From assembly GCF_000299335.2 (NCBI RefSeq), contig NZ_CP004387.1, forward strand, positions 4,046,994 through 4,110,993: 64,000 bases of DNA, written 5' to 3'. Positions within the stretch are counted from its first letter, which is position 1; every line of letters starts with the position of its first letter. The position numbers and the translations under genes were made by a program. This document shows, piece after piece, positions 6,405 to 35,343 of the stretch. The DNA comes from Isoalcanivorax pacificus W11-5 (GTDB taxonomy: Bacteria > Pseudomonadota > Gammaproteobacteria > Pseudomonadales > Alcanivoracaceae). The notes beneath the pieces were generated by a model. That model saw nothing but the letters and a program-made list of their open reading frames with translations. It searched no databases and was not told where the DNA came from.

Positions 6405-7367
6405 TTAATCCATCAGCCACTCACGCCTGTCGGCGAATGCCTGCACCAGCATATTGACCACGGCATTTACTTCGACACGATTACTGATGTCCCGGCGCAC
6501 CAGCAGATGCACGTCCAGCGCGGGGGTGCCTGCCAGCAGCGTATCCAGCGGCAGCAGATTGCGGTCCAGCCGGTGGCTGTAGTGCGGCAGCAGGCCGACG
6601 GCCGCGCTCCAGATCAGGCAGTCGCGCAGCAGGTCGCTGGTGTCCACTTCCAGCACGCCGACCTTGCGCTGGCCAACCAGCGCGTTCCATTCCTCAAACG
6701 CCGGCAGCGCACCAAACCCCCGGTATTGCACCAGCAGGCACTCTTCCAGTGGCAACGCGTTGCGCGTCTGATGCCGGCGCGCGGTAAAGGGCGCAAAACG
6801 CAGGCAGCCCAGCCGCCGCACCAGCAACGCATCATCCTGCGGGGGCGTTTCCGGTTCGCGCAGCACGACCCGCACATCGGCCTCCTGCTCAAGCACCTGG
6901 CCAAGGGCCGCCGGCAACAGATTGATGCGCGCACGGGGCTGATTGCGCAAATACGTCATCAGCCCGCGCCGCAACAGGTCATGGGCCAGCGGTTCATCCA
7001 GCGCCAGGGTGACAGGCCGCGACAACGATTGCGCCAGCATGTCCGTGCGCGTGGCACCGGGAATCAATCGCGCCACGGCATACAGCCGGCGGCCAGCGCC
7101 GGTCAGGCGGACGGCATCACCCTCACGGCGAAACAGGCGCTCGCCCTGCTGCCGTTCCAGTTTGCCGATCTGGCGCCGCAGCGAGACCACACCGATGCCG
7201 AGATGCGTGGCGGCACGCCGGAAGCTGGCCAGCTCGGCCACCTGCACGAATGCGTCCAGTTGTGCGCGGCTGTCGAAAAATTCCAGCCAGGGCGCGCGTG
7301 CCCGCGCGGACGCGCGCGAATCATCCTGTTCTGTCATATGGCGCGGATCATCATCGGCGGAGAACAT
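6405..7367 (-). CDS. LysR-type transcriptional regulator
   Basis: A 320-aa LysR-family DNA-binding regulator. The winged HTH is at about residues 35-95 (AFVQVAELASFRRAATHLGIGVVSLRRQIGKLE), followed by a long linker helix and a co-inducer-binding domain. The start at 7367 is supported by AGGAGGTG just upstream. It carries about 30 residues before the HTH, more than is usual in the family. It lies 147 nt downstream of the PpiC-type gene, at the distal end of the secretion/signalling cluster. From memory a regulator gene also closes the comparable PUMA3 locus of P. aeruginosa (PA0701), so it may belong to the system. Its targets and ligand are unknown. Confidence 0.88.
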   Translation of the reverse strand: MFSADDDPRHMTEQDDSRASARARAPWLEFFDSRAQLDAFVQVAELASFRRAATHLGIGVVSLRRQIGKLERQQGERLFRREGDAVRLTGAGRRLYAVARLIPGATRTDMLAQSLSRPVTLALDEPLAHDLLRRGLMTYLRNQPRARINLLPAALGQVLEQEADVRVVLREPETPPQDDALLVRRLGCLRFAPFTARRHQTRNALPLEECLLVQYRGFGALPAFEEWNALVGQRKVGVLEVDTSDLLRDCLIWSAAVGLLPHYSHRLDRNLLPLDTLLAGTPALDVHLLVRRDISNRVEVNAVVNMLVQAFADRREWLMD

Positions 7368-7514
7368 CTGCGCACCTCCTGTACTGTGGAAAGCCTGTTA
7401 TCGGACAGCGTCATGCCTGCCTGGCCTGCAACGCCAATCCGTATCTCCCTGGCCCTTCGTCCACCCTGCCGACTGATCAGACCCTGCGCGGCCAGTGGTG
7501 CCACTGGCACGCCG

Positions 7515-8441
7515 TCAACGCAGCGAATCCACGACCTGCGTCAACGCCGCGCCATCGATATTCAGTGACGTGCGCGCAAGAAGGGTGTCCACGTAGCCGG
7601 TGATCTGGTCGCGGCGGTATTGCTGGCGCAGTGCTTCGCGCAACTGCGGCGATACGTCTTCCAGGCTGAGCTGGCGCGCCGGTTCCCGTGCCACCAGCTT
7701 GAGCACATGCAGGCCAGCCTCGGAACGTATCGGCCCGGCGATCTCGCCGGGTGACAGGGCCGCCACCTGCTCGCGCACCGCAGGCAGCAATCGCGACAGC
7801 GGCACCAGGCCGGTATCAATGTCGGGGTTGTCCGACGCCGACTGCGCCAGATCCGCAAACGCCGCCGGCGTGCGCCGCGCGCGCTCGGCCAGGGCGCTCG
7901 CCCGCTGCTGCGCCGCCTGCCGCCCTGTCTCGCCGGTGACGGCGACAAAAATCTGCTGCAGATGGTACAGATCGGGTGCCACCAGCTCCGGTGCAGCCCG
8001 GTCGTAGGCCTGTTGCAACATCGTTGCGGGGGGATAATCCGTCGGGGGTTCGCTCAGCGTGGCGAGGTAATCCTGCAACACCAGCTGTTCGGTCGCCTGG
8101 CGCAGGGCTGCCGCCACGGTGTCACGTTGCGGCCAGTCTCTGGCCAGCGCTTCGTTCACCAGCGCGCGCTCTACCAGCCGTTCTTTCAGCCACTGTTCCA
8201 GCAATGCCCGATCACTCACCACCGCAGACAGGCTGTCGGCCGGCAATGACTGCAATCGCTGGCGCAGTTCGCTGCTGTGCAGGAGCGCATTGTTACCCAG
8301 CTGTGCGACGACCGCGCCGGCAGCCTTCGACACCGGCACAGCGCTCTCCTGCCGGGCCAGTCCGGCCACCAGTGAACCGGACACCAGCGCCGACAGTGCG
8401 CCCACGCCAATCAGCCAACCCAGCGTCTTGCCACGGGACAT
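7515..8441 (-). CDS. PpiC-type periplasmic peptidyl-prolyl isomerase
   Basis: A 308-aa parvulin-family foldase. It has an uncleaved or cleavable N-terminal hydrophobic segment (residues 8-28), a helical SurA/PrsA-like chaperone region (about 45-150), and a rotamase domain (about 155-265) with the QIFVAVTG, DLAQSASDNPDIDTG and GPIRSEAGLHVLKL elements typical of PpiC. The body should face the periplasm. It is the last gene of a tightly spaced series that begins with the TpsB pore gene (19-nt gap to the preceding gene; AAGGAGG ribosome-binding site). The most likely client is the giant TpsA, the porin or TpsB. From memory, a PpiC-type isomerase is also part of the P. aeruginosa PUMA3 region. Confidence 0.88.
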   Translation of the reverse strand: MSRGKTLGWLIGVGALSALVSGSLVAGLARQESAVPVSKAAGAVVAQLGNNALLHSSELRQRLQSLPADSLSAVVSDRALLEQWLKERLVERALVNEALARDWPQRDTVAAALRQATEQLVLQDYLATLSEPPTDYPPATMLQQAYDRAAPELVAPDLYHLQQIFVAVTGETGRQAAQQRASALAERARRTPAAFADLAQSASDNPDIDTGLVPLSRLLPAVREQVAALSPGEIAGPIRSEAGLHVLKLVAREPARQLSLEDVSPQLREALRQQYRRDQITGYVDTLLARTSLNIDGAALTQVVDSLR

Positions 8442-8460
8442 GCTCGCCTCCTTTTGCGGA

Positions 8461-8928
8461 TCAGGCGGTTTCGGTTTCGTCGACGTCCATCGGCGCAGCG
8501 GCCTCGACCGGCTGTGCGATGTACTGTTTCAGAAACAGGATGAATTCCTGCAACAGCCGGTCCCAGATTTCCGCGTTGGCGCGCAGGCAGCCCTCGCTCA
8601 CGCCGCCAGCCACGATCACGTCCTGCTCCAGCAACAGAAAGCCGGCCTGATGGGACAGCCGCGCAAACCGCTTCTGGCGGTTCCAGTCGTTCACCAGCGC
8701 CGGCGGCAGCTCGCCCTGCACGCGCAATGCACAGCTCAGGGTGTAGTCCAGGTATTCGGTGTCGTTGCGGCGGTTGCCAAAGCGCAGCGCGAAGCCGATG
8801 CCCTGGGAGGCACTGAGCAGCTGCACCACGTCGCCCTGTTCGGACGGGGTCACGCGGTAGCCGGCGGACTGCAACAGGGTGGTCATGCTCTCGACGGAAA
8901 CGGCGTCGATCATTGCTGTGTCACTCAT
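8461..8928 (-). CDS. YbjN-domain protein
   Basis: A 155-aa soluble protein with the YbjN fold signature (about residues 10-135: LLQSAGYRVTP, then a strand-rich stretch and NRQKRFARL, LEQDVIVAGGVSEGCL and LLQEFILFLKQYI). YbjN proteins resemble type III secretion chaperones in fold and are loosely called sensory transduction regulators; their biochemical role is unclear. There is no signal peptide, so it should be cytoplasmic. The C-terminal tail is acidic. Gaps are 15 nt upstream and 19 nt downstream, so it is co-transcribed with the coiled-coil and PpiC genes. A chaperone-like role towards an exported partner is only a hypothesis from context. Confidence 0.8.
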   Translation of the reverse strand: MSDTAMIDAVSVESMTTLLQSAGYRVTPSEQGDVVQLLSASQGIGFALRFGNRRNDTEYLDYTLSCALRVQGELPPALVNDWNRQKRFARLSHQAGFLLLEQDVIVAGGVSEGCLRANAEIWDRLLQEFILFLKQYIAQPVEAAAPMDVDETETA

Positions 8929-8943
8929 GGAACGGTTCCTGTC

Positions 8944-9618
8944 TCAATGGATGGGGGTAGCAGAGGCCTGATCGGCGCCAGCGGCTGGCAGCGGCATCTG
9001 CGGATCGAAGCGGCCCTGGTAAAGCTCATCGCCGTAGCGTTGTGCGATGTCGTCAAAGCGCACGCGCGCAGCGGCGGCAAAAGGCTGCCGGGTACGCAGC
9101 ACATCACCCAGGCTGATGTCCTCGTACGCCTTCAGCACGCGCTGGCCGGTCTCGTAAAGCTGGTCGTTCTTTTCCATGCACAACGTCAACTGCCCATCGC
9201 GCTGGCCCAGCGCGGTTTCCAGCGACACGCGCTGCGCTTCCTTTGCACGGGCAATCTCCAGCAGTTCGTCATAGGCGCCCCGGAACTGCGCCAGTTGGTC
9301 GTTGCGCGCTTCCAGTTGTGCGCTGGCGTTGCGACGCAGGTTTTCCGTGTTCTGGCTGGCACGCTCAAGTTGCGCACGCAGGCGCGCGGTTTCCTGTTGC
9401 GCAGCATCGCGCTCGGCTTCTGCCGTGCGCAGCGCAGCCTCGGTGCGGGCCTGCTGGCTTTGCAGGGTCTGCAGTGACTGCACGGTGGAGCGCAGCTCAG
9501 CGCGCAGGCGTTCTTCCATGGTGTTGGCACTGGCGGACAGGGCCGGCAACAGGCCTGCGATAATGAGGCCGCAGAACATTGCCCTGGGGCCGAAGGTGCG
9601 AGAACGAATCGTGATCAT
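8944..9618 (-). CDS. Exported coiled-coil protein of unknown function
   Basis: A 224-aa protein with a signal peptide (about residues 1-31, ending SASA) followed by a long coiled coil (about 35-165, rich in Q, E, A, R and L; LQTLQSQQARTEAALRTAEAER is typical of the heptad pattern) and a short C-terminal region (FDDIAQRYGDELYQGRF). It should be periplasmic. The frame stays open further upstream, but ATG at 9618 has AGGGAG at the right distance and begins the signal peptide, while the longer version would overlap the porin gene. It sits 35 nt after the porin gene and 15 nt before the ybjN-like gene. A spacer or scaffold function between the membranes fits its shape but is inferred. Confidence 0.82.
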   Translation of the reverse strand: MITIRSRTFGPRAMFCGLIIAGLLPALSASANTMEERLRAELRSTVQSLQTLQSQQARTEAALRTAEAERDAAQQETARLRAQLERASQNTENLRRNASAQLEARNDQLAQFRGAYDELLEIARAKEAQRVSLETALGQRDGQLTLCMEKNDQLYETGQRVLKAYEDISLGDVLRTRQPFAAAARVRFDDIAQRYGDELYQGRFDPQMPLPAAGADQASATPIH

Positions 9619-9653
9619 GACGGTACTCCCTTTCTGGTTTGCATCACGCCGGC

Positions 9654-11366
9654 TCAGAAGCGTGCATTGACTTCCAGTTGCAGGATGTCCACCCGCAGCG
9701 GTGCGCCATACACTTCCTCGCTGCTCATCCAGCGCATCTGGCCGTACACACGTTTGTGGAAACCGTAGGCGCCACCCAGGTAATACCCCTTGGCGTTGGT
9801 GCCACCACGGTGGAAGGTGGAATCGTTGTAGGCATCCGGCAGGGCGTCCGGCTCGATGTATTTGTAGCCCAGTTGCACGTTCCACTGGCCGGCGTCGCGG
9901 ATCTCCACTGCCGTGCCCAGGGCCAGGTCCAGCATCCAGGCATCACCGCCGCTGCGGATGTTGCCTTGCTGGTCCAGGTTGTTGATCACCCGCCCGTCGG
10001 TAGAACCCTGCTGCGTGCTGCCGGAGCGCGTGAGCATGTCGTCTTCATCGTAGGCGAGGTTGTGCACATAGTGGCCGGTGACCTGCAGTGTCATGTCGTT
10101 GAACAGCGCGGTTTGCCATCTCAGGTTGAGATCCACAAGCTGGAATTCCGACGCCAGGCCCACGTACTGCTCCATCGGTGTGGCCGCCGGATTGAGCGGG
10201 TCCAGTGTGATGTCGCGCAGCACGAACAGCGTATTGCCCTTCTGCAAGAACGCCGGCCGCGACCAGTCGGTGTTACAGCCATAGCCTGCCTCCCGGTCAC
10301 TGAACCAGGGCTGGCATGGATCGGAGCGTTCACCACTGATGTTGTCGAAGTGGTAGTAACCTGCCGCTGCGCGCAACTGGTTGTCACTGTCCATTTTCCA
10401 CAGCGAACCAAGCTGCGCGCCGAACAGCCACTTGTCCTGGTTTTTGGTCTTGAATTCGCTGCGCGACGGGGAATCATCACTGGTAAATTCCAGCGGGAAG
10501 GCGCCCAGTGTGCCGAACAGCGACAGCTCACTGTCCTCTGCGGCGGCGTAGGTGGCAGCGATGCCGTCAAAGTTCAGGTCGCTGGCGTACAGCATGTCGG
10601 TGGTGACGAACGGGTTGGCAAAGCGGCCGGCGGTGAACGCCAGGTGTTGCGTCGGCAGCCAGCTGATGAAGCCGCGGTCCAGCCACAGGTCTTTTTTCTC
10701 CAGCCCGCCGCCCAGGGTCTGGTTGGTGGACACCGGATTATCGTCACTGCCGGTGGCGACGCGCAGCCCGGCGCGCCAGTGTTCGGAGATATCCGCCGTG
10801 AACCCGAACCGCGCCCGCAGGCGCAGCAGGTTGATGCGGTCTTCGCGCGTGTTGTAGAACGGCGGCCAGGCACCGGTGGCCAGTGCCTGCTGTGAAATGT
10901 CCTGTGGGCCTTCCTCATTGAAACGCTGGAAGTCGATCAGGTAGGGGTCGTTGTAGTCATCGAAAAAACGCGATTCGCTGCGCACACGCACGTCGGCATC
11001 CAGCCGGATACGCGAAGCCCAGTCCGGGAAGGTGTTCGGTTGTGCCCAGTTTTCCGCAATGGCCTGGCTGATGACCTGATCGCGGACTTCCCCGGTGATT
11101 TCTTCGCGCACATTTTCCGGGATGTACGGCACGCGGACATCCCCTTCCTGCAACACCGGCTCGGCGGCCTGCGCCGCGTCACGCGTCGCCTGCTCGAGCA
11201 GTGCCGCCGCCTGCGCTTCGGTGAGCACGCCATTCTGCACCAGCAGATTGATCAGGTTGCGCGTGGTGCTGCTGTCGGTGGCCGCGCTCTGCTGGGCCAC
11301 GGCCTGGCCAGACACGGCACAGGCCAGGGCGATCATGGCAGCCAGTCGGCGAAGTCGGAAATTCAT
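9654..11366 (-). CDS. Putative outer-membrane porin (Porin_5 type)
   Basis: A 570-aa outer-membrane beta-barrel. The signal peptide is residues 1-24 (SGQAVA|QQ). Next comes a short helix (NLINLLVQNGVLTEAQAAALLEQA) seen in the putative porin family PF16930, then many amphipathic strands with W/Y/F girdles, ending in VNARF with a terminal Phe. ATG at 11366 is preferred over an upstream GTG because GGAG is 8 nt before it. The gene follows tonB by 36 nt. Porins of this type are often encoded beside ExbB/ExbD/TonB genes with DUF2341, yet no plug domain is visible, so direct TonB gating is not evident. Its cargo may be phosphate or an organic phosphate by context; this is inference. Confidence 0.87.
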   Translation of the reverse strand: MNFRLRRLAAMIALACAVSGQAVAQQSAATDSSTTRNLINLLVQNGVLTEAQAAALLEQATRDAAQAAEPVLQEGDVRVPYIPENVREEITGEVRDQVISQAIAENWAQPNTFPDWASRIRLDADVRVRSESRFFDDYNDPYLIDFQRFNEEGPQDISQQALATGAWPPFYNTREDRINLLRLRARFGFTADISEHWRAGLRVATGSDDNPVSTNQTLGGGLEKKDLWLDRGFISWLPTQHLAFTAGRFANPFVTTDMLYASDLNFDGIAATYAAAEDSELSLFGTLGAFPLEFTSDDSPSRSEFKTKNQDKWLFGAQLGSLWKMDSDNQLRAAAGYYHFDNISGERSDPCQPWFSDREAGYGCNTDWSRPAFLQKGNTLFVLRDITLDPLNPAATPMEQYVGLASEFQLVDLNLRWQTALFNDMTLQVTGHYVHNLAYDEDDMLTRSGSTQQGSTDGRVINNLDQQGNIRSGGDAWMLDLALGTAVEIRDAGQWNVQLGYKYIEPDALPDAYNDSTFHRGGTNAKGYYLGGAYGFHKRVYGQMRWMSSEEVYGAPLRVDILQLEVNARF

Positions 11367-11402
11367 GGGCACTGCTCCTGAACGAGTCTGTATTCGGTGA
11401 GG

Positions 11403-12107: not shown

Positions 12108-12119
12108 GTTCGGTCCTGT

Positions 12120-12533: not shown

Positions 12534-12543
12534 GCTGTTCTCC

Positions 12544-14370: not shown

Positions 14371-14449
14371 GGTCAGCGTACTCCAGGTCGTTCCCTTGAA
14401 TTAGGTATGAACCGTCCGGCCATCCGGTGCAGTTCTTTGTCGCGATCAA

Positions 14450-16078: not shown

Positions 16079-16151
16079 GAATTCGTTTCCGCTTGTTTGC
16101 GTTCCGGCACCAGGCCGCGTTCGGGAGCCGCCGTACGTCTCCCCGGCGGTT

Positions 16152-17928: not shown

Positions 17929-18607
17929 CTGTTACTCCCGGGCATGCCCGACTGTCGTCCAATCCTTCGGTGTCTGCCGCGCGCAACAGCAAGGTCAGCG
18001 GTTGTGCCATGGTGGGCGGCGGCGCCAGTGCAATGTGTAGCGAGGCCAGCACCTCGCGCAAGGCGGCGTCGCGCACCGCATGGCCCGTGGAGGCCAGCAG
18101 GCGCGATGTCGCGACCCGGCCATCGGCGGCGATATGCAACTGGACCGCCGCGCGGTATGACCCCGGCCGGGTGAGCGCGCTGGCGCACAGCGCCTGCCAC
18201 AGGCTGTGCTGCACCAACGTGGCGTAACGGTGTGCGGCCACCGTGTGTGGCCCGGCCGCGCCAGCGGCGGGCTGCGCCGCCGCGTGGTGACGCCGCAACG
18301 TCAATCCCTGTGCGCCGCTGTAATGCGCTTCCAGCCCGGTGCCGACCAGCAATTGCGTCAGCGCCGCGCTGTCGCTGAAGTGCCCGGCCAGCGCCGTGCT
18401 CCGCCGGCCACTCACCAGGGCGCTGTCGAACAGCACCGCCATGCCGGTCAGCGCACTGTACTGTGCCAGCGCTTCATTCAGCGGCTGCGCCGCGATATCG
18501 AAACGGCGCGCCGCCTCTGCGGCAGCGCCCGACACGAGCAACGCGCACCACACCAGCAGCAACACACCGCCGCGGCGGACCGCGAGGTTCCGACCCGCAT
18601 CCGACAT
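17846..18607 (-). CDS. STN-domain periplasmic signalling protein with TonB-like C-terminus (VreA-like, no barrel)
   Basis: A 253-aa exported protein. A signal peptide or anchor (about 12-32) is followed by an STN domain (about 35-105; RRFDIAAQPLNEALAQYSALTGMAVLFDSALV), the module by which TonB-dependent transducers contact FecR. There is no plug or beta-barrel. Instead the C-terminal half (about 125-215; YRAAVQLHIAADGRVATSRLLASTGHAVRDAALREVL) resembles the TonB C-terminal domain. The final 27 residues are encoded in DNA that also starts the sigma gene. P. aeruginosa VreA is a known receptor-less example. A Pho box lies 123-140 bp upstream, so expression is probably PhoB-dependent. Confidence 0.88.
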   Translation of the reverse strand: MSDAGRNLAVRRGGVLLLVWCALLVSGAAAEAARRFDIAAQPLNEALAQYSALTGMAVLFDSALVSGRRSTALAGHFSDSAALTQLLVGTGLEAHYSGAQGLTLRRHHAAAQPAAGAAGPHTVAAHRYATLVQHSLWQALCASALTRPGSYRAAVQLHIAADGRVATSRLLASTGHAVRDAALREVLASLHIALAPPPTMAQPLTLLLRAADTEGLDDSRACPGVTDVEADHQGPVHPALRGTAQPPELPARQ

Positions 18608-18729: not shown

Positions 18730-18747
18730 ATGACATTTCGATGACAT
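18730..18747 (-). promoter_or_regulatory. Pho box (PhoB-binding site) upstream of the STN-sigma-FecR genes
   Basis: Read on the minus strand the site is ATGTCAT-CGAA-ATGTCAT. These are two identical heptamers with a 4-nt spacer and an 11-bp period, which is the PhoB site architecture (consensus CTGTCAT, 4 nt, CTGTCAT). Each heptamer differs from consensus only at its first base. The orientation points towards the STN gene, whose ATG is 123 bp away. PhoB control of the comparable vreAIR genes in P. aeruginosa is established; for this organism it is inferred. Confidence 0.8.
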
Positions 18748-18858: not shown

Positions 18859-18971
18859 GTTACCTGAACTTTTCAGACTTTTTCAATATGCCCTTTGTTC
18901 ATTTCATATGCATAGTCAATGCATCGATACGCTATACTTTCTCTCACTGTTTCCGTACCGGAATTCTGGCT

Positions 18972-19316
18972 GTGAATAAAATAGTTTTCTGGATAATTCC
19001 ACCGTTAATGACCTTGTGCGGTATTTCTCCGGCCAGCGAGAGTGAGGAGATGCCCAGTTGCATTTCGGTCGAGGTCAATGGCAGCCGCAGCCCCAGCTAC
19101 GATTGCCTGAGCAGGATGATGGCGCCGCAGGGAGATACCGCATCCGGTTCGCTTCCCCAGTTTGATTCCGCAGCAGTGATCAACCGGGGCGGCAACCAGC
19201 TCGGTCTGTTCAATCGCGCTGCCACGCAAATCCGCATGGGCAGCAACTTCGGCCACAGTATCTATCCCAATACCCCTGCACGCACATCGCCACCCAATCC
19301 ACTGGTGCCCAGATAA
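18972..19316 (+). CDS. Small secreted protein of unknown function
   Basis: The only plus-strand gene in the signalling/secretion region. From the GTG at 18972 it encodes 114 aa: a signal peptide (KIVFWIIPPLMTLCGISPASES, about residues 3-24) and a mature part of about 90 aa with two Cys (in PSCISVEVNG and YDCLSRMM), no long hydrophobic segment, and a polar Asn/Pro-rich end. The frame is open further upstream (ATG at 18888), but those codons do not resemble an export signal. No strong ribosome-binding site is visible. It converges on tpsA, with 50 nt between the stop codons. I recognise no family; it may be a secreted or periplasmic partner of the system. Confidence 0.6.
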   Translation: MNKIVFWIIPPLMTLCGISPASESEEMPSCISVEVNGSRSPSYDCLSRMMAPQGDTASGSLPQFDSAAVINRGGNQLGLFNRAATQIRMGSNFGHSIYPNTPARTSPPNPLVPR

Positions 19317-19366: not shown

Positions 19367-22300
19367 TTACATCAGGTTCGCACGTTCTTCTTCCGTCAAT
19401 CGGGCTTTCGCTTCTTCTGAAAGCGGGCCGCTCCCCAGCACATCCAAAGGCAGTGACCCACCACTCATGGGCGCCCCTGCGCCCGGCGCCAATGATTCAT
19501 CACCAAAGCCAAGAATCTCCACGGTAATGATGGAAGGCTGCGTGCTGTTGTTGCGCCGGGAGACGGTTTCCGCCGCTTGCGATGCTGCCGTGCTGGCAGA
19601 GCTTGCTGCCGTCAGTGCGCCGGTGTTGACGGCGGCCACCACCGGAATACCCTGCGATTCACCCTGCACCTGTATGTTGTCGGCATTGAGCACCTGCAAG
19701 GCAGCGATGTTGACGTTACCGGACACACGAATCCCTGCTTCGCCCGCATCAACGGTGCCCAGCGGTGCGATCAGGTCGATGTCGCCCGGCTCGACACCGG
19801 CGATCGGGTTGAGCGTGGCGATACCGGCGCCGGAGCTCGGTGCGTTCGGTGACAGCGCAACGTTGCCCCACTGGTCGTACACGCGCAGCGGCGGCGTATA
19901 GACCTGTGTGGTCTGCGAACCACGCCCGGCGTTGATGTCGCCCTCTTCGGACCAGGCCTGGATGTCACCGCCGAACACCGTCATCACCCGGCTCTGGCCA
20001 AGCAGAATGCTGTCGCGGGATAACTGGCGGATACTGCCTTCGCCCAGTGTCACGACACCGGCAGTGCCAGCCGGGTCGGTTCCCTCGACACCGAGCGTCT
20101 GGGCACCGGACGGTGTCAGCAGATGAATGTCTCCGCCGCGCAGCGTCTGGATACCCGCATCACCGAACATCACCAGATCACCACCGGCGCTGTCTTCTTC
20201 CGCGCGCTCCGGGAACGCCGCTTCGATCACGCGGCGGCCGCGCAGATAACTGCCCGGCCGCGGGCCGTCGGCATCGTTGAATTCACGACCGCTGGCGAGC
20301 AATTCCGCGAACAGCACCTGCCGCGCAAAGATTTGCTGCGCACTGTCGTTGAGGCCGGCAAATACCGCCAGTGCGCTCTCCAGATTGTCACCCTGGAAGC
20401 CGTAGCGCGCCGCCAGCCACTCGATCAGTTCGTCGGTGTACAGCGCGGCGACGCGATCCGGTTGATCTGCCAGTGGCATGTCCTGATCTGCCAGCTTGGC
20501 CGGGTCCAGGTAACGTGACAGCAGGCCGTCCACATCCAGCGGCGAGTCCGCCAGGCCGGCCATGACGGCGATGTCCGCGCCACGGCGGCTGTCACCCTGC
20601 ACCACCGGACCGAGCGATACGATGCTGGCCTGGTCCTGCATCAGGATGGAGCCGCCGGCGGAGACTTCCAGCAGGCCGGGGCCGGCGACGCTGAAATTGC
20701 TGGTGAGGATGCGGCCGCCGGCGTGGACGCGGGAGATGTCGTTGTCGTTGTGGTGGAGGAAGAGGTTGCCTCGGCTGGTGGCGCCCTGGTACAGGTTGGT
20801 GATGCTCACTGATTCCCCAATGGCACGCCCTGAACTGATGATATCGCCGCCTGCGGATAGCCATGTCGGGCCGCCAGAGACGTACCAGGTATCACCGCCA
20901 TACTGAGGCCCGAAGGTCACCATCTCGCCCAGGTTGATGTCTACGATGTCACCTTCCGATGCATAGACGTAGGAGATGTTATTGGAGCGCGTCTGAGCCA
21001 GGGATTCCGGTGTCGCCGTATTGGGCCCAAACGCAAACAAGGCCCCCTTTCCGTCCCTTCCGCCTTGTCCATCCAGCGCTACTCGCTCGTAAACATTGTC
21101 AACCCGTTGTTCATTCTGCGCGCCTTGATTCAAGGTGCCCACAAAGGCCGGGTTGAATGGCGTTGCTATCGCATCCTCGGAGGCAGAGGATTCACTTATA
21201 TTTATATCACCACCATAAATGCTGTGCTTCGCGAGCAGATTAAGCACGCCGCTCTCGGAAGGCGCCATCCAGATGCCGTAGATCTCACTGATCTGATATT
21301 CGTTCAGGCCACCACCAGTTGCTGCAGCGCCAAAGAAGATATTCTCGCCCGATGCAATGCTGAACTTGGCCGGGTAAATGAAACGTTCTCCATCAGAAGA
21401 GGCGTTCATGACTTCGTTCAAGCGGCCATACTGGTTCCTCTCAACGTACTGTGTGCCGGCAGCAACACTGGCTCCGGACGATGCAAGCGTCAGCGCAGTG
21501 CTATCTGTCCAGAGAGAAAACCAGGTTTCCCCTCCTGCCACCTTGTTGCCTGCGTGTTCGAAGGGCAACGCCGTGATGCCGGCCACCCTGCCCGGATCAC
21601 TCACGCCCGCCAGCACCAGATCACCCAGCGCATTCAGCGTGAACTGGCTGTCGCCTGGCGCCAGGACCAGGCCACCCGCAGCATTAACGATGCTGCTTTC
21701 ATAGGCCGACTGGTACTGCCACTGGTTGTTGATTCCTGCGCTGTCTCGACCACCATAGAAGCGCTGCATGCCGCCAACTGCCCGCGTCGACACCGATGTC
21801 TGGCCGCGGAGATTCACTATCAGCCCCGACAGATCCTGCATTCCTGTCTGAGTTTTCATCACCTGGGCTGAGTACAAAGGATTCAGGGCGCCGCCCACAT
21901 GAATCGAAATGTCTCCTCCCCCCGTGAGGGAAATCCGGTCTTCCTCAACCCTGCCGGTACCACCCACAATGACCGAGAGCCCTTCGCTCTTTGGGGCACC
22001 CGCTGCATTAAGCATTTGCCCATTGGTCTTGCCCGCATTGATGATGCCCGCATCACCCCCAACGGTCAGTGCAACATTCCCTCCGCCCAACGTGCCCAGG
22101 CCTGTAAAGCCGACAAGGTAGGGCGTATTGCTGACGGAAAGCAGTTCCTCGGGTGAATATTCAGACTGCGTTGCATTTGAACCCGTGTAAATATCCGGCA
22201 CGCTGCTCTGGTCGACGTAAGTGCCGAAGTTGATCCACCAGGCCGTGTTGACGGAAGAAACATCTGATATATCACCAGTCCCCTGTCGCCAGAGCCAGTT

Positions 22301-31300: not shown

Positions 31301-31975
31301 CCCGTTGCGGTTGATCAGCATCACCGTGCCGTCACCCTTGATCTGTCCCTGGATCTGCGACGGCCGCGCGTTCGGATCATTGACCCGGTTCAGCACCGCC
31401 CAGTCGGCCTGCTGGTCGAACGCCACCGTGGTGTCGCGGCCCACATTGAAGGTTTCCCAGTTCAGTACGGCCTTGTCGGCGGTCTGTTTGATGTCCACCG
31501 TGATGTGGCCATCCTTGATCGTTTGCGTGGGCGCTTCGGCGTTCTGCCAGGCCTGCTCGAACGGCAGACTGCTGTCGATCTTCAGGCCGCCTTCGGCCAG
31601 ACCGTTGGGGACAAGCGAGGGGTTGCTGAACGCCAGGTCACGCTGCGCGGCCTGCCGGGCCTGTGCGGCAGCGATGGCGGACAGGGTGGTGCTCATGTTG
31701 CTGAGCGACTGCTGCAGGACCTGATCCACCTGCGGCCGGGGTGGCCGGTTCAGGCCAGTGCCGGGCAGGCCCAGGCCGGGGCGGTTGCCGCTGAGTGCGG
31801 CGCCACCGGGCTGGGTCGCCACCGGTGCACCGCCCTGCATCCAGCCCGGCAGGGCGGCGTGAGCGCTCTGGGTCAGCAGGGCCAGGGCGACCGCATGAGC
31901 CACAGGACAGAGGTTAAAAAAAAAGCTCTTCTGCAAGCCAGCTTCCGGCACTGACGAGGCCTCTAGTAACGGCAT
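19367..31975 (-). CDS. Giant two-partner secretion exoprotein, TpsA (filamentous haemagglutinin family, PdtA-like)
   Basis: A 4202-aa (over 400 kDa) secreted beta-helical protein. A long N-terminal signal region (1-40) has hydrophobic core LCPVAHAVALALL and site AHA|A. The TPS secretion domain (about 105-330) includes VLNWETFNVGRDTTVAFDQ and LINRNGVVFSGSSQV, a variant of the usual NPNG motif. The rest is a long series of short beta-strand repeats rich in G, N, D, T and A. The C-terminal part (about 3925-4100; FGDAGIQTLRGGDIHLLTPSGAQ, EEGDINAGRGSQTT) matches the DUF3739 type seen in large haemagglutinin-like proteins. The start is supported by GAGGGAAG upstream. The transporter is the TpsB at 14450-16078. 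From memory PdtA of P. aeruginosa is of similar size. Adhesin or phosphate-stress roles are inferred. Confidence 0.94.
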   Translation of the reverse strand: MPLLEASSVPEAGLQKSFFFNLCPVAHAVALALLTQSAHAALPGWMQGGAPVATQPGGAALSGNRPGLGLPGTGLNRPPRPQVDQVLQQSLSNMSTTLSAIAAAQARQAAQRDLAFSNPSLVPNGLAEGGLKIDSSLPFEQAWQNAEAPTQTIKDGHITVDIKQTADKAVLNWETFNVGRDTTVAFDQQADWAVLNRVNDPNARPSQIQGQIKGDGTVMLINRNGVVFSGSSQVNVRNLAVAAVGMTDEQFRERGIYSAEAGSNRYTPSFGNDLSGTGAGATSSAATGDVIVEAGAQINTHKPASVTQGGGYVLLLGREVHNDGAISTPRGQVTLAAGDSFIIRKGVSTDGNQTSTTRGNEVATRRLNGSEAGLVRNTGLLQASTGDITLTGHTVQQAGVAVATTSVDQRGTIHLLNAASDSEGSVTLVANSTTAILLEDSDATAEDSRRNSGLEGLDNLAPNNGGDFNNLSGVVDRSDLSRVEIVSGGNVDFEGDSMTLATGGEVVVSAAGQATVADKAVIDVSGAVGVSVAMDSNSIQVNIQGNEQRDSPVNREEGDLNSERVWIDVRDLIFVPAGTNGYDTDRWYTAGGLLEVGGYLASRGRTVGEWMAQGGKATFTGNDLVTQQGSQINLSGGTLDVQTGYINQTWLKGADGRLYELSSAPGDIHYTGVYKGFERNSERWGVTEYYWNPLVVAQRRLENGYTVGRDAGTLVVSTSQATLEGDLVGEVYQGERQDQAPQAGLDGYDQSQKAIARRAQLVVGQYVPYYLEDEGRLGYQFNPTVDNIQIGGTATDGALMLNADWLNSQQLGGLKVAAREQIVVQEALQLATGGALQLYSTLVDVNADITAHSGDIQLGNVARQVVLQAGVPVEQDRVLGVPTGLQAGVTVAENARLDTTGLWTNELTGGDTRDRAWLDGGRVSLRSSGDVRLLAGSEVDVSSGAAYTREGQFVGGRGGDVTVIAGSGTSAGELVLDGRLNAIGAEGGGTLRIDTGQAVVIANDRPADEQAAWLLPSLFTSGFSHYDIAGRGGLAIADGTQVEVTVPVYRPTQSSRYQANGVAASEALETWLPPEYWQAVPGSTTLQQREGGSITLTAGGLQGTAAVIADARIGAGATLRVDSGQTISLLGTGDVQVEGALIAPGGSIFIGDPSLSDTAIEAGRSNSAVLERVIEIGAGARLDVAGRAYMQNTVDGQAFGVVRDGGRIRIGGDVDPASGTASGAADAFVVIREGAVLDASGASARLTPTGLAVPTELASHGGEIQLASNNGLLLNGEMQARSGGEGASGGLLSLVLGSPAYLNAAPAETRAYRELIVSENAVEISDQLPTFGQAVLSVDQVTQGGFDQLSLLSEGALSFDGDVSLQLGRSLSVYAQVIGLAEGAADDARVHLEAPYVLLAGANGQNTLSPGRVRSELNPNGTGALSAMQAMSAAHLAVEADHIDVRDQVRTSIGAPAVAGGEAMDRVGFDQVSLTSTGDLRFLNHASDSATALTLPGDLSISAAQVYPATGASATVTAGYLTSTTLDTERTLRISRSTDGDLPDQPYSVFGTLELRAGTIEQAGVLRAPLGIIRLGAGNVVDPVSRVVLMPGSLTSVSGAGLVVPYGGTVDDITWLYGGEEVDVSAWLTAGNNASKVDINTGSLLVEENAVLDLSGGGELLGAGFVAGRGGSSDVRFAPLIRVTPEGVVFPELATNPVYAIVPGAVSGYAPIDPARGASDPLIGQQITLGEGVPGLPAGTYTLMPSTYALLPGAFRVEVNGGVLATGTAPMRNGSWSAPAHFGIAGTTVRDPLARQVFLTASDLVRRYSQYNETTYSEFVASTAAVSGALRAALPEDAKTLALRLASLDPDHSALTFAGQLKAEAADGGYGATVQIEGSGASPVLEVVSAEEGRTIGFTGVSLDDVTLNALAENAERLVIGAQVREDPANNPGMLIIQGGGSLTLREGTMLRASEVILGAAGMNNALTIERGAGVDTLGQGEVSLDAGSGYTLNVQGAAVIASNGAHQVLFQDSSTTRPAAISIGASGQAEAPATTLYSEGTLAFATGSDLLLDDSTLYGTRDLALALGAVNLGDTASLAAAAAAGVLPDGFSFNQSVLERLLTGDTATGAPAMERFSLSASQGLNVFGDITLSTLDDNGASTLETFVLTTPAIMGAGDADNTVTIETGHLVWNGTTGTPPAPVGNADQIGPGTGSGRLNIHADVIELGYGPDSRPGGTETVERMILGFSDVVLRATEVFTANNQGALSVYQSRGDYVTGEGWQYHGGNLRIETPVITGEAGAVSSVRAGGNLLLTTPDGASTELPDRDDALGATLVFQGQQVTLDTQVMLPSGKLTLAAEDDVILTDAAQIDMAGREILFDDVSRYSWGGNVTLESASGNIHQSAGSEIDLSAENNHAGSLTAVAVDEDAGEVMLLGDILGQSSGEYDAGGTWVPYESGRVDIRAQSLGDFASLNARLTEGEVFGARHFQIKQGDLTVGNEVRARDVSISLDNGLLTVNGRIDASGAQVGSIRLAGKQGLTLTDNAVLDAHGEILRVDSYGQIIEAPNRAIIELNSGDGTLTLANGARMDLRFGTEAPAGTGAGQHDGRALGTVTLTAPRLDSATSGDMDINVQGPVSVSGARSIAVQGNWRYDDARYGTDEAASGRPYQVIDQDYLDAKHEDSEDFIDAALQNNDLLARLAGLRDGNGEVFHLRPSVEIVSATADGDLVVQGDLDLSGHRYASLNPNTQKTAVHGSGEAGALAIRAGGDLNIYGSINDGFAPPPETPDDNGWVLLPGVNPYGVDVIVPGAGVTLAQGTTFPAGRVLNYDVPLQGFIMQAGTELPVPVMLGQDTTLPANTILRGDVTDAAGNVYAAGTLLHEPLVLGAGSMLGVGFMLAQHTPINNVIWPAGVPLPVRMRTATGTLMDPVVLAENLALKVGAVLPKETDLVLPDGMEEIPLRSSTGSRQGENWAVAAMLSSGSQSWDMRLVAGADIAASDTRMARPLATTGNLTLSDHHYQFAAVFAVPGTMVWAPGNPDGKPSLELVSSDEIESCETEGMCLELEPGYYWNAAGEERNPTWKEGTAANPSLCRLAAFARFCTEILEPEEPPTPVKVDEVYSGVHFSVVRTGTGDLDIVAAGDVAIESMYGVYTAGTPLSVDAGFNRDRALGNGNVLSDAHGIEDYEALVQPDTGLYQAWFPTAGGNLSLTAGGDLTGTMSSALLSNTASNLAVRRAASMSAIGNWLWRQGTGDISDVSSVNTAWWINFGTYVDQSSVPDIYTGSNATQSEYSPEELLSVSNTPYLVGFTGLGTLGGGNVALTVGGDAGIINAGKTNGQMLNAAGAPKSEGLSVIVGGTGRVEEDRISLTGGGDISIHVGGALNPLYSAQVMKTQTGMQDLSGLIVNLRGQTSVSTRAVGGMQRFYGGRDSAGINNQWQYQSAYESSIVNAAGGLVLAPGDSQFTLNALGDLVLAGVSDPGRVAGITALPFEHAGNKVAGGETWFSLWTDSTALTLASSGASVAAGTQYVERNQYGRLNEVMNASSDGERFIYPAKFSIASGENIFFGAAATGGGLNEYQISEIYGIWMAPSESGVLNLLAKHSIYGGDINISESSASEDAIATPFNPAFVGTLNQGAQNEQRVDNVYERVALDGQGGRDGKGALFAFGPNTATPESLAQTRSNNISYVYASEGDIVDINLGEMVTFGPQYGGDTWYVSGGPTWLSAGGDIISSGRAIGESVSITNLYQGATSRGNLFLHHNDNDISRVHAGGRILTSNFSVAGPGLLEVSAGGSILMQDQASIVSLGPVVQGDSRRGADIAVMAGLADSPLDVDGLLSRYLDPAKLADQDMPLADQPDRVAALYTDELIEWLAARYGFQGDNLESALAVFAGLNDSAQQIFARQVLFAELLASGREFNDADGPRPGSYLRGRRVIEAAFPERAEEDSAGGDLVMFGDAGIQTLRGGDIHLLTPSGAQTLGVEGTDPAGTAGVVTLGEGSIRQLSRDSILLGQSRVMTVFGGDIQAWSEEGDINAGRGSQTTQVYTPPLRVYDQWGNVALSPNAPSSGAGIATLNPIAGVEPGDIDLIAPLGTVDAGEAGIRVSGNVNIAALQVLNADNIQVQGESQGIPVVAAVNTGALTAASSASTAASQAAETVSRRNNSTQPSIITVEILGFGDESLAPGAGAPMSGGSLPLDVLGSGPLSEEAKARLTEEERANLM

Positions 31976-31991
31976 AGACTACTTCCCTCAA

Positions 31992-32026
31992 GAATAGAGT
32001 TGGCTGAAGCGCAGCCTTCTCTATTC
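31992..32026 (-). promoter_or_regulatory. Strong stem-loop in the tpsA leader next to the ribosome-binding site
   Basis: An outer 8-bp stem (GAATAGAG/CTCTATTC) and an inner 5-bp stem (GGCTG/CAGCC), separated by a 2-nt internal loop, enclose a 5-nt loop. It ends 17 nt before the tpsA start codon, directly ahead of the GAGGGAAG ribosome-binding site. There is no T tract, so it is not an ordinary terminator. A role in translation control or mRNA stability is plausible. Confidence 0.55.
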
Positions 32027-32137
32027 AGGCTGTCGGCTTAATATGCCCTGCAGACCACATCCGAATAGGAAAACCGAACTGGCGTAATAAAATATTCATA
32101 ATTCGGCCGCCTCCTGCCATCCCCCAGCGCAATAAAC

Positions 32138-32225
32138 AAGCAAGAGATAGCCCCCAGCCCAAAACTTGCTTCAAACCGGAATCAGGCCACATTAAACATA
32201 GAAGATATGTGACTTAACAATATCT
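32138..32225. promoter_or_regulatory. Two dyads and a candidate promoter in the tpsA upstream region
   Basis: AAGCAAG at 32138-32144 pairs with CTTGCTT at 32165-32171 (20-nt loop). AGATAT at 32203-32208 pairs with ATATCT at 32220-32225 (11-nt spacer). On the minus strand TTGTTA and TTTAAT, 18 nt apart, overlap the second dyad and could be the tpsA promoter. The segment is AT-rich relative to flanking coding DNA. Confidence 0.35.
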
Positions 32226-32271
32226 TTCAGATTCTTACGTCAGGCTTTTACCATTGAGGCAATTCAGGGCC

Positions 32272-33381
32272 TTATCTGCCCAGCCCTTGGCAGATGTCAG
32301 GATCATTTATATGAAAGGAAAATTCATACAAAGCCCCTAATGCCCAATCCTGCGTTATTGGAATCATATTATTCTGAGAAACTATACCGTCGTAGTCGCC
32401 AAGGCCTATTACGAACAAAAGGTCCTGAACTTCCAATCCAACGTCCAGATCTTCGTAGCACTGGCTAGCAAGAATAAACACCAGACCAGCCATGGGATAT
32501 CCTAGGGTGGGATCGGGAAAGATCGGCGACCAATCCTGTATATTGGAGGTCGATGGGACGGAAATACCCTGTATCGTTGCCTCAACTCGCGTCTCTGATG
32601 GTAAGTATCCAATTCCATCATAGTCGTTAATTATTCGTGCCACTTTAGTTTGATCATTAAAACCAGGATAGTTCGGCCCAACAAACGCAATCGCCCCATC
32701 AATATTATTCATTACCGAAATCACTGACTGATCGCCATTCACCGGGAGAAACAGAGCACTGCCAGAAGGCGTTCCAATCCTAGCCAACATAAAGTCTTCG
32801 TTTTCTTGAAATAGATGGGGCGCCTTGTAGGCCAGGTGTCTTGTTGCTATCTTTGTCATCCCACTATCAACATTGCTGTAAACAACCATAATTTGCTTGG
32901 AGGGGTAGTTACCCAGTTGATTCCAGTTCGTTATCTGGCCAGAAAAAATATTGGCCACGTCATCAGCCGTTACCGTCAACGGATTCTGAGCCGAAACATC
33001 ACCATTATTAAAACCCACGCCAACACCACTTACCGCCAAGGGAACTTGTATAAGTTTCCCGAAGTTCGGCTCATACTGATCCGCGTAATCCAATATTTCA
33101 CTGTACTCAAGCCCCAATGCAGTTACAGCGAAATGTACAGATTGATAGCCTTCGACTAAACCGATGGCGCCAGGGCTGTTGCTTAAGAATGAATATCGAA
33201 TGTTTACTTCATCACCAGGCACATACTCAAACTCATAACCACGAGAGTTTAGGTCTCCGGTTATAGAGCTCATTATAGGATCCGCCACGCCACTAACGGC
33301 TCCGATCACATCAGCAGCAACGGAGCTTGTCCCAGCCATCATGGTTAATACAATCAGAGAAACACTAGATCGAGAATGCAT
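32272..33381 (-). CDS. PstS-like protein with degenerate phosphate site
   Basis: A 369-aa exported protein of the PstS/DING phosphate-binding fold, with a signal peptide (about 1-25, SSVAA|D). It aligns along its whole length with the next upstream gene product, also 369 aa (shared stretches such as IFSGQITNWNQLG and ARIGTPSGSA), so the two are a tandem duplication. The ligand-binding positions have changed: the paralogue's GGGASL is GAVSGV here, AGSDS is AVTAL (the Asp is lost), and HRADGSGT is YSNVDSGMT (the Arg is lost). Phosphate binding is therefore doubtful. The ATG at 33381 has GGAGG at good spacing. DNA is AT-richer than neighbours. P. aeruginosa carries PstS/DING-like LapA-type genes beside pdtA; the parallel is from memory. 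Confidence 0.88.
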   Translation of the reverse strand: MHSRSSVSLIVLTMMAGTSSVAADVIGAVSGVADPIMSSITGDLNSRGYEFEYVPGDEVNIRYSFLSNSPGAIGLVEGYQSVHFAVTALGLEYSEILDYADQYEPNFGKLIQVPLAVSGVGVGFNNGDVSAQNPLTVTADDVANIFSGQITNWNQLGNYPSKQIMVVYSNVDSGMTKIATRHLAYKAPHLFQENEDFMLARIGTPSGSALFLPVNGDQSVISVMNNIDGAIAFVGPNYPGFNDQTKVARIINDYDGIGYLPSETRVEATIQGISVPSTSNIQDWSPIFPDPTLGYPMAGLVFILASQCYEDLDVGLEVQDLLFVIGLGDYDGIVSQNNMIPITQDWALGALYEFSFHINDPDICQGLGR

Positions 33382-33415
33382 GGATCCCTCCATGAGCAAA
33401 TGATGGATTAGCGAA

Positions 33416-33443
33416 GGTGGCGAACCATTCCTGGTTCGCCACC
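33416..33443 (-). promoter_or_regulatory. 11-bp perfect hairpin between the two PstS-like genes
   Basis: GGTGGCGAACC pairs perfectly with GGTTCGCCACC around the loop ATTCCT. It lies about 30 nt after the stop of the intact paralogue and about 35 nt before the start of the degenerate one. No T tract follows, so it may act as a stabilising 3' end or attenuator giving unequal expression of the two genes. Confidence 0.6.
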
Positions 33444-33473
33444 GGTGTTTATGTATTTGAAAAACAGCCGATG

Positions 33474-34583
33474 TTATCGACCGGTAACTGAAGCGCAGCC
33501 AGAACCATTTATATTCAAAGCATACGTATTAAGCACGGCATTCTGCCAGCTGCTTGGCAGCGGAATCAGGCTAGCGCTGGAAATGTAGGAGTCGTGCAGA
33601 CCAGCATAATGATTGATCGCGAAGTTGCTAATTGCAGCACCAATCGCCGGATCGTTGTAGCACTCACTCAGCAGCATGTAAGTAAAGCCAGCGATCGGAT
33701 ATCCAGCGCTTGGGTTAGGGAAAATCGGCGCCCAATCGGCCGGATTAGTGGTGGACGGAGGGGTTACCGAGTCAAAGGTGACCTGCACGTTAACCTGCGT
33801 TGGCATATACGCAGTGCTATTGGTAGGGTTGATGATAGCGGCCACTTCCGACGGGTCGGACGGGTCAACATAATCCGGGCTAACGAAGGTAATAGCGCCA
33901 TCAATGCTGTTCATCAGGGACACTACACCGCTTGATCCATTGGCTGACTGAAAAACAGCGCTCCCGGACGGCGTGCCAATCCGAGCTGTCAGGAAGTTGG
34001 TGCTGGTCTGGAACAAAGTCGGCTCAACAGCAGCCAGGTGGCGCGTGAATATCTCCACAGTACCAGAACCATCAGCGCGATGAACAACGGTTATTTGCTT
34101 CGATGAAAAGGCACCCAGCTGGTTCCAGTTAGTGATTTGGCCGGAAAAAATCTTGGCCACATCGCTGCTGCTCAGAACCAGAGGATTCATTGCAGTTACT
34201 TCGCTGTTGTTGAATGGGACAGTAACGGAGGTGCCCGCGAACGGAACTTGAATCAGGTCGCCAAAGGTGCTTTGATCGTTAGCCGCATAGTTGCTGATCT
34301 CCGCACTCGTAGCAATGGAATCGCTACCAGCATAGTGTACGGTCGGCACCAGAGCCGGATCATAACCAAACTCGCTTGAATCGTTACCGAAGAAAGCACG
34401 CTTGCCCGCGCTCGAGCCAACGGAGACATAGCTTTCGTAGTTGTAGTTTTCGCCGGTGATAATGTCATTGAACACGCCGGCAGACAGGGAAGCACCACCA
34501 CCAACGACATCAGCAGACGCCTGACCAGCAAACGCTGCCAGACCCAGGCTGAGTGACACAGCCAGAACATTACGCTTGAACAT
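33474..34583 (-). CDS. PstS/DING-like phosphate-binding protein
   Basis: A 369-aa exported phosphate-binding-type protein. Signal peptide 1-25 (FAGQASA|D). The expected ligand loops are all present: GGGASL near the mature N-terminus (PstS GAGASF), VGSSAGKRAFF, YAGSDSIATSAEI (the Asp of the PstS ASD loop) and VHRADGSGTVEIFTRHL (the Arg and SGT loop). ATG at 34583 has GGAG 8 nt upstream and starts the signal peptide; a longer TTG-started frame would overlap a terminator and is rejected. No pstCAB genes follow, so it probably works as a free periplasmic or secreted scavenger rather than an ABC-transporter subunit. A single Pho-like heptamer lies upstream at 34708-34714. Confidence 0.9.
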   Translation of the reverse strand: MFKRNVLAVSLSLGLAAFAGQASADVVGGGASLSAGVFNDIITGENYNYESYVSVGSSAGKRAFFGNDSSEFGYDPALVPTVHYAGSDSIATSAEISNYAANDQSTFGDLIQVPFAGTSVTVPFNNSEVTAMNPLVLSSSDVAKIFSGQITNWNQLGAFSSKQITVVHRADGSGTVEIFTRHLAAVEPTLFQTSTNFLTARIGTPSGSAVFQSANGSSGVVSLMNSIDGAITFVSPDYVDPSDPSEVAAIINPTNSTAYMPTQVNVQVTFDSVTPPSTTNPADWAPIFPNPSAGYPIAGFTYMLLSECYNDPAIGAAISNFAINHYAGLHDSYISSASLIPLPSSWQNAVLNTYALNINGSGCASVTGR

Positions 34584-34758
34584 CTTGAAATCTCCATTTA
34601 AGGGTTTGTTTGTTTCGTCCGGAAAATCGTGCAGCGCCGTTGATATCACCCTCTGCATTGGAGTATTGGTGATCAGGTCGCTACAGAATTTACTTTCAGG
34701 GGTGGCGATGACAGCGCGGGGAAAATTGCTCGGGAGATTCCAGACTTTTCCATTCTTC

Positions 34759-34791
34759 AAAAAAAAGCACCATGCCAACGCAGCATAGTGC
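34759..34791 (-). terminator. Rho-independent terminator of the Phd-DUF772 gene
   Basis: On the minus strand GCACTATGC pairs with GCATGGTGC (9 bp with one G-U pair, 7-nt loop) and is followed by eight T residues (34759-34766 as A on plus). It lies 30 nt after the stop of the gene at 34822, and separates it from the PstS-like genes. Confidence 0.85.
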
Positions 34792-34821
34792 CATCATTTC
34801 TGTTTTGTTATCGTGGTCTTG

Positions 34822-35343
34822 TTACGCGCCGCAGCGGCCAAAACCCCGTTTATCCAGAAACCCCTTGATCACGGCAACCAGTTCAAGCCGGTCACCAAAT
34901 GCCCCCACATCCCGAATAAAATCATCGCGCGACCACATGCGCCGGTTTACATCCAGGCCCACAAACCAGCGATACAATATGTTGTAGTTGATCTGGTGAT
35001 AGATGTCCGCTTCGTTACCGGTATGGGTAATGGCCAGACGCAGCAACATGATGTGCGTTAACGCAGTCATGTTCAGGCGAAAAAGGCCTTCGCCCGCCAT
35101 CGCCGTGACCTGCTCCACCAGACCAGACTCCGATACGGCGTCGCGCAACGTGATCAGCGGGTGCTCCATCGGAAGGTAATCCCGGATATCCGTCAGGGTT
35201 TTCTGCCATTCCTCCTGCGACACGATCCAGACCCAGGGTGAACCATAACGGAACACTGATACCGGGCTGACGCGCGCTGATTCCACAATCCTTGATAATT
35301 TCTGATCCAGTTCCTGCATGCCTACACGTGAATATCGCGTCAT
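34822..35343 (-). CDS. Phd-like/DUF772 fusion protein (PhdA-like)
   Basis: A 173-aa protein with two recognisable parts. Residues about 1-50 (RVGMQELDQKLSRIVESARVSPVSVFRYGSPWVWIVSQEEW) resemble the Phd/YefM antitoxin fold. Residues about 75-160 (ALTHIMLLRLAITHTGNEADIYHQINYNILYRWFVGLDV) resemble DUF772, the N-terminal DNA-binding domain of IS5-family transposases, with no catalytic domain. The start is uncertain: ATG at 35343 is used, and TTG at 35373 is possible; neither has a strong ribosome-binding site. No toxin gene is adjacent. P. aeruginosa phdA (PA0691), named for similarity to prevent-host-death proteins, sits between pdtA and pdtB, so this is probably its counterpart. Confidence 0.75.
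   Translation of the reverse strand: MTRYSRVGMQELDQKLSRIVESARVSPVSVFRYGSPWVWIVSQEEWQKTLTDIRDYLPMEHPLITLRDAVSESGLVEQVTAMAGEGLFRLNMTALTHIMLLRLAITHTGNEADIYHQINYNILYRWFVGLDVNRRMWSRDDFIRDVGAFGDRLELVAVIKGFLDKRGFGRCGA

Follow-up and report, generated by a model that had tools for sequence, protein, structure and literature searches.

In a normal TonB-dependent transducer, a single polypeptide carries the signalling domain, the TonB box and the barrel. In the PUMA3 system of Pseudomonas aeruginosa, VreA is described as an STN domain joined to a TolA/TonB-like domain, and homologues of PUMA3 in other genera were reported already in 2009 (PMC2729926; this and the papers below are cited for individual passages). 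Those loci were named as homologues by their two-partner secretion (TPS), exbBD and PA0696 neighbours, and because Hxc is mentioned for some of them only, we do not take linked Hxc as defining the PUMA3 type. The gene list published for strain PAO1 runs from PA0692 (pdtB) through exbB2, exbD2 and tonB4 to PA0696, a putative outer-membrane porin, and PA0697, and further to PA0698 (YbjN), PA0699 (PpiC) and PA0701 (LysR) (PMC7035377). In the passages cited, TPS secretion is said to work without a motor, and no role is known for VreA or for exbB2-exbD2-tonB4 (PMC5422565, PMC7035377); HxuCBA is a precedent for TPS together with TonB (PMC5422565). Here we analyse a related gene cluster of Isoalcanivorax pacificus W11-5, at positions 6405-35343 of a 64,000-nucleotide window (4046994-4110993 of contig C1, the single contig of a 4,168,427-base genome).

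We give an even chance to the view, drawn from gene content and sequence comparison, that the locus is of the PUMA3 type and has at its base an older unit of DUF3739 TpsA, TpsB, Porin_5 and Ton motor, with a split transducer whose docking is predicted.

Gene content and comparison with PUMA3

Cluster proteins were assigned from open reading frames (ORFs) and Pfam (16 cluster proteins and three neighbours scanned); starts marked ~ are predicted, having been chosen among the available start codons. All cluster genes lie on the minus strand and are read 5' to 3' from 35343 downwards. The genes listed by the original prediction (STN protein, extracytoplasmic function (ECF) sigma factor, FecR, TpsB, TpsA, ExbB-ExbD-TonB, Porin_5 and others) were all recovered in this way and, as it had stated, no TonB-dependent receptor accompanies them, neither a receptor plug nor a barrel being matched among the 16 cluster proteins.

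Nine window genes follow the order of PA0692-PA0699 and PA0701 in the published list (PMC7035377). They are a TpsB transporter (PdtB-like, 16078-14450; POTRA_2 and ShlB), ExbB (ExbB2-like, 608 residues, 14370-12544), ExbD (~12533-12120; Pfam ExbD E 1.1e-28), the module TonB (TonB4-like, 12107-11403; Pfam and tree), a Porin_5 of the full-length type (11372-9654; 620.8 bits), a coiled-coil protein (PA0697-like by position, ~9618-8944), YbjN (PA0698-like, 8928-8461), a PpiC-type prolyl isomerase (PA0699-like, 8441-7515) and a LysR regulator (PA0701-like by position, 7367-6405), the last three identified by Pfam. The coiled-coil protein has no Pfam match over cut-off and no significant match in the PDB (E 0.5). 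The ExbB is unusual in that DUF2341 and a lectin-like domain (Laminin_G_3) precede its channel part.

Using ExbB as the search query, we compared the window with the best 80 of 123 confirmed loci (named loci, L numbers), of which the closest by ExbB is that of Alcanivorax sp. S71-1-4 (93%). Among the 80, TpsB is matched in all, the coiled-coil protein in 78 and LysR in 62. The order TpsB-ExbB-ExbD-TonB-Porin_5-coiled coil-YbjN-PpiC is colinear in 74 of the 76 loci that are long enough, the other two (L036 and L081) having no PpiC match, and so the grouping is not due to chance. The vre genes are nearby in 10 of the 80. The claim of an orthologous, rearranged PUMA3 system is partly supported: judged against 59 other Pseudomonas loci among the named loci and against the published gene list, by which PAO1 is represented, content and order are of the PUMA3 type, and the genes whose placement differs from PUMA3 are those for vre, TpsA, DING and Phd. 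Two metagenome-assembled loci, L005 (Halomonas) and L051 (Gemmatimonadetes), have match values nearly equal to those of Pseudomonas abyssi L007 and Halopseudomonas L031 and are probably mis-binned.

The locus had also been predicted to be without the Hxc type II secretion genes, which agrees with a single GspG match in the genome, at 2.02 Mb and some 2 Mb from the window. Across 14 related genomes there are one to four GspG matches each, with one apiece in the Alcanivoracaceae L002, L019, L033 and L081 and in Alcaligenes L011. In 8 of the 14 genomes, GspG shares its contig with relatives of DING protein 1, about 8 to 33 kb away; in P. otitidis (L008) the two are on different contigs. Because of the single match and this survey, we consider that Hxc is lost or was never present here, with the LapA/DING-type gene kept in the window and in the L002 genome. 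The further suggestion that the locus is a minimal form from which the core parts could be identified did not hold up, as the window keeps the vre, Phd, YbjN, PpiC, LysR and DING genes; smaller modules in other families consist of TpsB, DUF3739 TpsA, ExbB, ExbD, TonB and Porin_5.

A unit of DUF3739 TpsA, Porin_5 and Ton motor

The giant TpsA exoprotein of the window (PdtA-like, 4202 residues, 31975-19367) has a TPS domain (E 3e-26) and, at residues 4002-4112 (19640-19972, minus strand), a DUF3739 domain (Pfam E 2.2e-39). We surveyed 369 genomes of the same class (G numbers) for the corresponding families. Porin_5 matches occur in 54 genomes, and 24 of the 369 have the full-length type (at least 466 bits, HMM start 1 to 46; two copies in G200); the next match after this group scores 118 bits and extends over only a portion of the barrel. 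DUF3739 exceeds its cut-off in 23 genomes of 17 family codes, all of them among the 24 with a full-length Porin_5 (hypergeometric 1e-35, kinship ignored). A weak 24th DUF3739 match, in G223, is under the cut-off. The one exception on the porin side is G104, which has the full-length porin and no DUF3739, in an assembly that is 85% complete. The association is not one with TPS at large: the generic TPS domain is found in 122 genomes, and of the 101 that have no DUF3739 a single one, G104 again, has a full-length Porin_5.

The motor follows the same distribution. DUF2341 is present in 23 of the 24 full-length porin genomes and in seven others (in G101 the match sits in a different frame, of 1632 amino acids). 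Leaving out the window's own genome, ExbB, ExbD, TonB and Porin_5 are contiguous around 20 of the 23 full-length porin genomes fetched. In G010, ExbB and TonB lie about 25 kb from the porin on the same contig; in G200 and G070, contig edges end the stretch and the TonB match adjoins the porin. No module was found around seven barrel-only Porin_5 stretches (3.5 to 17 kb). Of 14 further stretches, 11 have a TpsA N-terminus and 10 of these also have TpsB. Judged from the survey counts of DUF3739, Porin_5, motor and TpsB, the constant set is TpsB, DUF3739 TpsA, lectin-ExbB, ExbD, TonB and Porin_5, an older core that by the same genome comparison exists in related genomes mostly without vre. This suggests that Ton motor, porin and giant exoprotein are inherited as one machine.

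Searches of the open-licence literature found no paper on DUF3739 (PF16930), an absence that is weak evidence of novelty, and none on filamentous hemagglutinin with a TonB box and TPS. TPS with phosphate starvation, TonB and hemagglutinin gave a TPS review only, and the passages returned for DUF2341 beside ExbB call it a domain whose function is unknown, and no more.

G136 (C1:2983279), G150 (C3:171325) and G119 (C3:154263) each have a further DUF2341 protein that is similar to ExbB in size; in the first two, the C-terminal domain common to VreA and the module TonB is matched about 2.4 kb from it.

The C-terminal domain of VreA

The VreA-like protein (253 residues, 18607-17846) opens a run of overlapping ORFs (18607-16377) that continues with an ECF sigma factor (VreI-like, 17928-17308; Sigma70_r2 and r4_2) and a FecR-type anti-sigma factor (VreR-like, 17411-16377; DUF4880 and FecR), the only FecR match of the genome. 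Its STN domain (18290-18439) is followed by a TonB-type C-terminal domain (17990-18226; weak Pfam TonB_2). Apart from STN, TonB_2 and one match below cut-off, Pfam gave nothing, and no plug or barrel was found in its 253 residues.

Given a profile of 46 module TonB C-termini, ten of eleven VreAs score 33.8-55.1 bits and the eleventh, that of L081, 29.7 bits. The same profile gives at most 31.1 bits to 28 other TonB-family proteins from our own and related genomes (the usable ones of 34 loci, near-copies included), and a profile of these 28 scores the VreAs at -1.1 to 24.9. In a tree of 72 rows and 119 columns, VreA and the module TonBs are split from the 28 others at 100/100, with VreA forming one group at 95/86. 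A converse search used a profile built from ten VreAs alone, so that its result is independent of the choice of controls. Over the 369 genomes, with at most seven candidates scored in each, full-length VreA was found in G000 and G274 only, each of which has the module, and the 16 strongest C-terminal-only matches are TonBs in module loci. The other matches are STN parts, mostly in frames of receptor size, or C-terminal parts. The profile also picks up FpvA, PupB and FecA by their signalling domains.

A PDB profile search with the C-terminal domain gave two TonB chains at E 0.17-0.25 only. We rejected the description of this domain as TolA-like, or as any TonB, since the module TonB family fits better in both profiles and tree. 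From this grouping, VreA probably arose by the joining of an STN domain to a copy of the module TonB.

Candidate docking strands

Just before the barrel, the full-length Porin_5 has a strand of the form VRVxYxP (VRVPYIP in the window, within GDVRVPYIPENV, residues 77-88, 11109-11144, minus strand), a candidate TonB-box-like strand. R80 and P85 do not vary among 34 aligned sequences, and V79, Y83 and V88 hardly do. The pattern is present in 14 of the 24 full-length loci, with a variant seen by eye in four more; for the remaining six the script used a wrong frame, and the same genomes are within the 34 aligned. None of the five usable loci, out of six that are barrel-only, has the strand.

The second candidate is the TpsA tail motif, VEILGFG in the window (residues 4152-4158, 19502-19522, minus strand). 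TpsAs with a window-related C-terminus end on, or close to, a VEVLGFG-type strand that follows a variable linker, 39 of 42 matching the pattern (sought in the last 110 residues) and the other three nearly so. The window TpsA has one match in its 4202 residues, and none was found in 14 usable control tails, from TpsAs of genomes without DUF3739 (including L240 of G169). As the pattern was written after the alignment and the control frames are the longest open ones, this contrast is supportive rather than blind.

Link to phosphate

A pho box, TGTCATCGAAATGTCAT, spans 18730-18746 on the minus strand, 123-139 bp upstream of the vreA start. It is one of six exact matches to TGTCAYNNNNNTGTCAY in the genome, where the reversed control has none. 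Another precedes the PhoB gene (TIGR02154 over its cut-off) and another a PstS-family gene (TIGR02136 E 9e-40, under its cut-off). The other three are near a lipoprotein-like ORF, an ORF of 438 or more residues and a multicopper oxidase (about 680 bp off), for which we know of no phosphate role. L002 has the identical box at vreA, Alcaligenes L011 has an exact match there and Pollutimonas L004 one with one mismatch; at the same stringency the box was not seen in the other seven of the eleven vre loci.

Boxes with up to one mismatch were counted in the 450 bp that precede the starts of TpsB, TpsA, ExbB, VreA or Phd. Against an expectation of 1.6 from overall density, there are 12 in the named loci and window, and against 0.3 there are four in the distant modules, the reversed control giving 0 in both; in these counts the starts are extrapolated from alignments and related species are non-independent events. 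Three of the four distant boxes lie 62-81 bp before exbB (L125, L134 and L143), with no vre nearby. Only the near-exact pattern was used, since a loose one (three mismatches) gives five matches in the window where 4.8 are expected. Boxes within 450 bp of phd in L032, L034 and L047 were counted.

Upstream of phd, many Pseudomonas loci (L013-L068) carry a pho-type box that is exact (mostly TGTCACNNGAATGTCAC) and adjoins a divergent gene for an aldehyde dehydrogenase. Because of that neighbour this box, 3-5 kb upstream of phd, was rejected as a module box and left out of the count.

The two proteins originally taken as PstS-like are present, and their family is DING. For DING/LapA-family protein 1 (~34583-33474; DING chains 2q9t/4f18 E 9e-49), PDB DING chains match at E 1e-45 to 1e-49 and PstS chains at 5e-10 or weaker, except for two phosphate-binding proteins (2e-16 and 2e-11); its phosphate loop is kept. 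DING-family protein 2 (~33381-32272; PDB DING E 1e-27) has diverged at the expected phosphate loop, where DSGMTK aligns with the SSGTTE of DING. The predicted link to phosphate thus stands, through the exact box upstream of vreA and two DING-family proteins, and the locus is probably expressed when phosphate is scarce.

For DING protein 1, the ORF as listed (33474-34778) begins about 195 bases too early, the likely start being 34583; in the L002 genome, a stop codon lies upstream of the equivalent position in the relative.

Other genes of the cluster

A plus-strand gene at 18888-19316, absent from the earlier reader's list, is conserved and encodes a small exported protein in which an RMGxxxG motif and two cysteines are conserved. 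It has homologues in 12 other loci (13 members aligned), adjoins vre or is divergent from tpsB, and has an intergenic region in common with the pho box and vreA. It matches no Pfam or NCBIfam model and no named family, and was not found in L002.

At the upstream end lies a Phd-like protein (PhdA-like, ~35343-34822), matched by tblastn in 56 of the 80 named loci and adjoining tpsB in 55 of these. No Phd Pfam model matched, and the label is based on position and on similarity to the Pseudomonas gene. Its C-terminal part resembles a transposase N-domain (DUF772 E 0.003, IS1182 E 8e-4, both below cut-off), as if a transposase piece had been recruited.

Discussion

These data allow us to propose a mechanism. 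TonB, as the motor, would pull a TonB-box-like strand of Porin_5 (VRVxYxP), of the TpsA tail (VEVLGFG), or of both, the TpsA tail staying in the periplasm. VreA, with its STN and TonB-type domains, would dock on the same strand as TonB and report the state of the strand to the FecR-type VreR, which would then free the sigma factor VreI. Because signalling domain (VreA) and docking strand or barrel would be separate chains, the transducer would be split in two, and 'receptor-split' would describe the locus better than 'receptor-less'. The role of TpsA and porin may be the capture and uptake of a phosphorus source, in the way that HxuA and HxuC handle haem. Taken jointly, this would be a TPS system with its own proton-driven motor, to which TpsA and Porin_5 offer their TonB-box-like strands, these strands being read also by VreA, an STN domain with a TonB copy, to switch on a phosphate-starvation regulon; for the whole of this reading our confidence is tentative and well short of even.

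Several observations weigh against it. The likeness of the Porin_5 and TpsA strands to TonB boxes is only presumed. G070 and G221 have the porin and DUF3739 but no TPS-domain match, and the pho box precedes vreA in only 4 of the 11 vre loci. On the module-TonB profile the VreA of L081 falls below one control (L090, 31.1 bits), and the tree has 119 columns only, a low number that the program flagged together with the meeting of long branches and an unusual residue composition of the VreAs of the window and L002. In P. aeruginosa, according to the passages cited, VreA is not required for transcription of the sigma-VreI regulon in low phosphate (PMC4971064) or for virulence (PMC7035377), which makes a role as obligatory activator doubtful. 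Either the docking signal could have been absent in those tests, or VreA could be dispensable.

The last possibility belongs to the plainest account, in which the locus is a PUMA3 orthologue whose vre genes regulate a TPS exoprotein and a TonB system serving other receptors, VreA being dispensable. Its gene content is that of PUMA3, and the passages cited report no effect on loss of vreA (PMC4971064, PMC7035377). However, the motor is inherited with Porin_5 and DUF3739 TpsA across 17 family codes, mostly without vre, and VreA is kept, with a C-terminal domain of the module TonB type; we consider this account improbable. Alternatively, the Ton motor might serve export and anchoring, acting on the giant TpsA to hold or release its periplasmic C-terminal tail, with the porin as an accessory and VreA sensing unexported tails as export-coupled feedback. 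That the motor tracks the DUF3739 type of TpsA and not TPS generally, that the conserved TpsA motif follows a variable linker and lies at the C-terminus or close to it, and that genes for PpiC and the coiled-coil protein constantly accompany the named loci would all fit. Type V export is, however, described as having no external energy source (PMC5422565), and export by itself leaves the equally strict Porin_5 link unexplained, so that we rate this explanation as rather unlikely.

Should one class of giant exoprotein never be inherited without a porin and a private Ton motor, and should VreA carry a copy of that motor's TonB, then the function of this Ton system and what VreA senses become one question. 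An old phosphate-linked core would also be set apart from the later addition of vre signalling.

Among known systems, the locus is like the PUMA3/sigma-VreI regulon (PA0674-PA0701) in its STN and TonB-like VreA, ECF sigma factor and FecR, its giant TpsA with TpsB, its exbB2-exbD2-tonB4 genes, its relatives of LapA/DING and PhdA, its phosphate link, and an outer-membrane porin, PA0697-like, YbjN, PpiC and LysR genes in the same order. It differs in having no Hxc and two DING genes, in placing vre, tpsA, DING and phd elsewhere in the cluster, and in the small exported gene divergent from vreA, which is not mentioned in the passages of the PUMA3 literature cited here. HxuCBA of Haemophilus influenzae likewise joins a TpsA/TpsB pair to TonB-linked uptake (PMC5422565); there HxuC is a TonB-dependent transporter, whereas the window has Porin_5 with a private ExbB-ExbD-TonB and a link to phosphate, not iron. 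With FecA-FecR-FecI and FpvA signalling the locus has in common an STN domain, a FecR-type anti-sigma factor and an ECF sigma factor, but its STN protein has no plug or barrel and carries a TonB-type C-terminal domain in their place.

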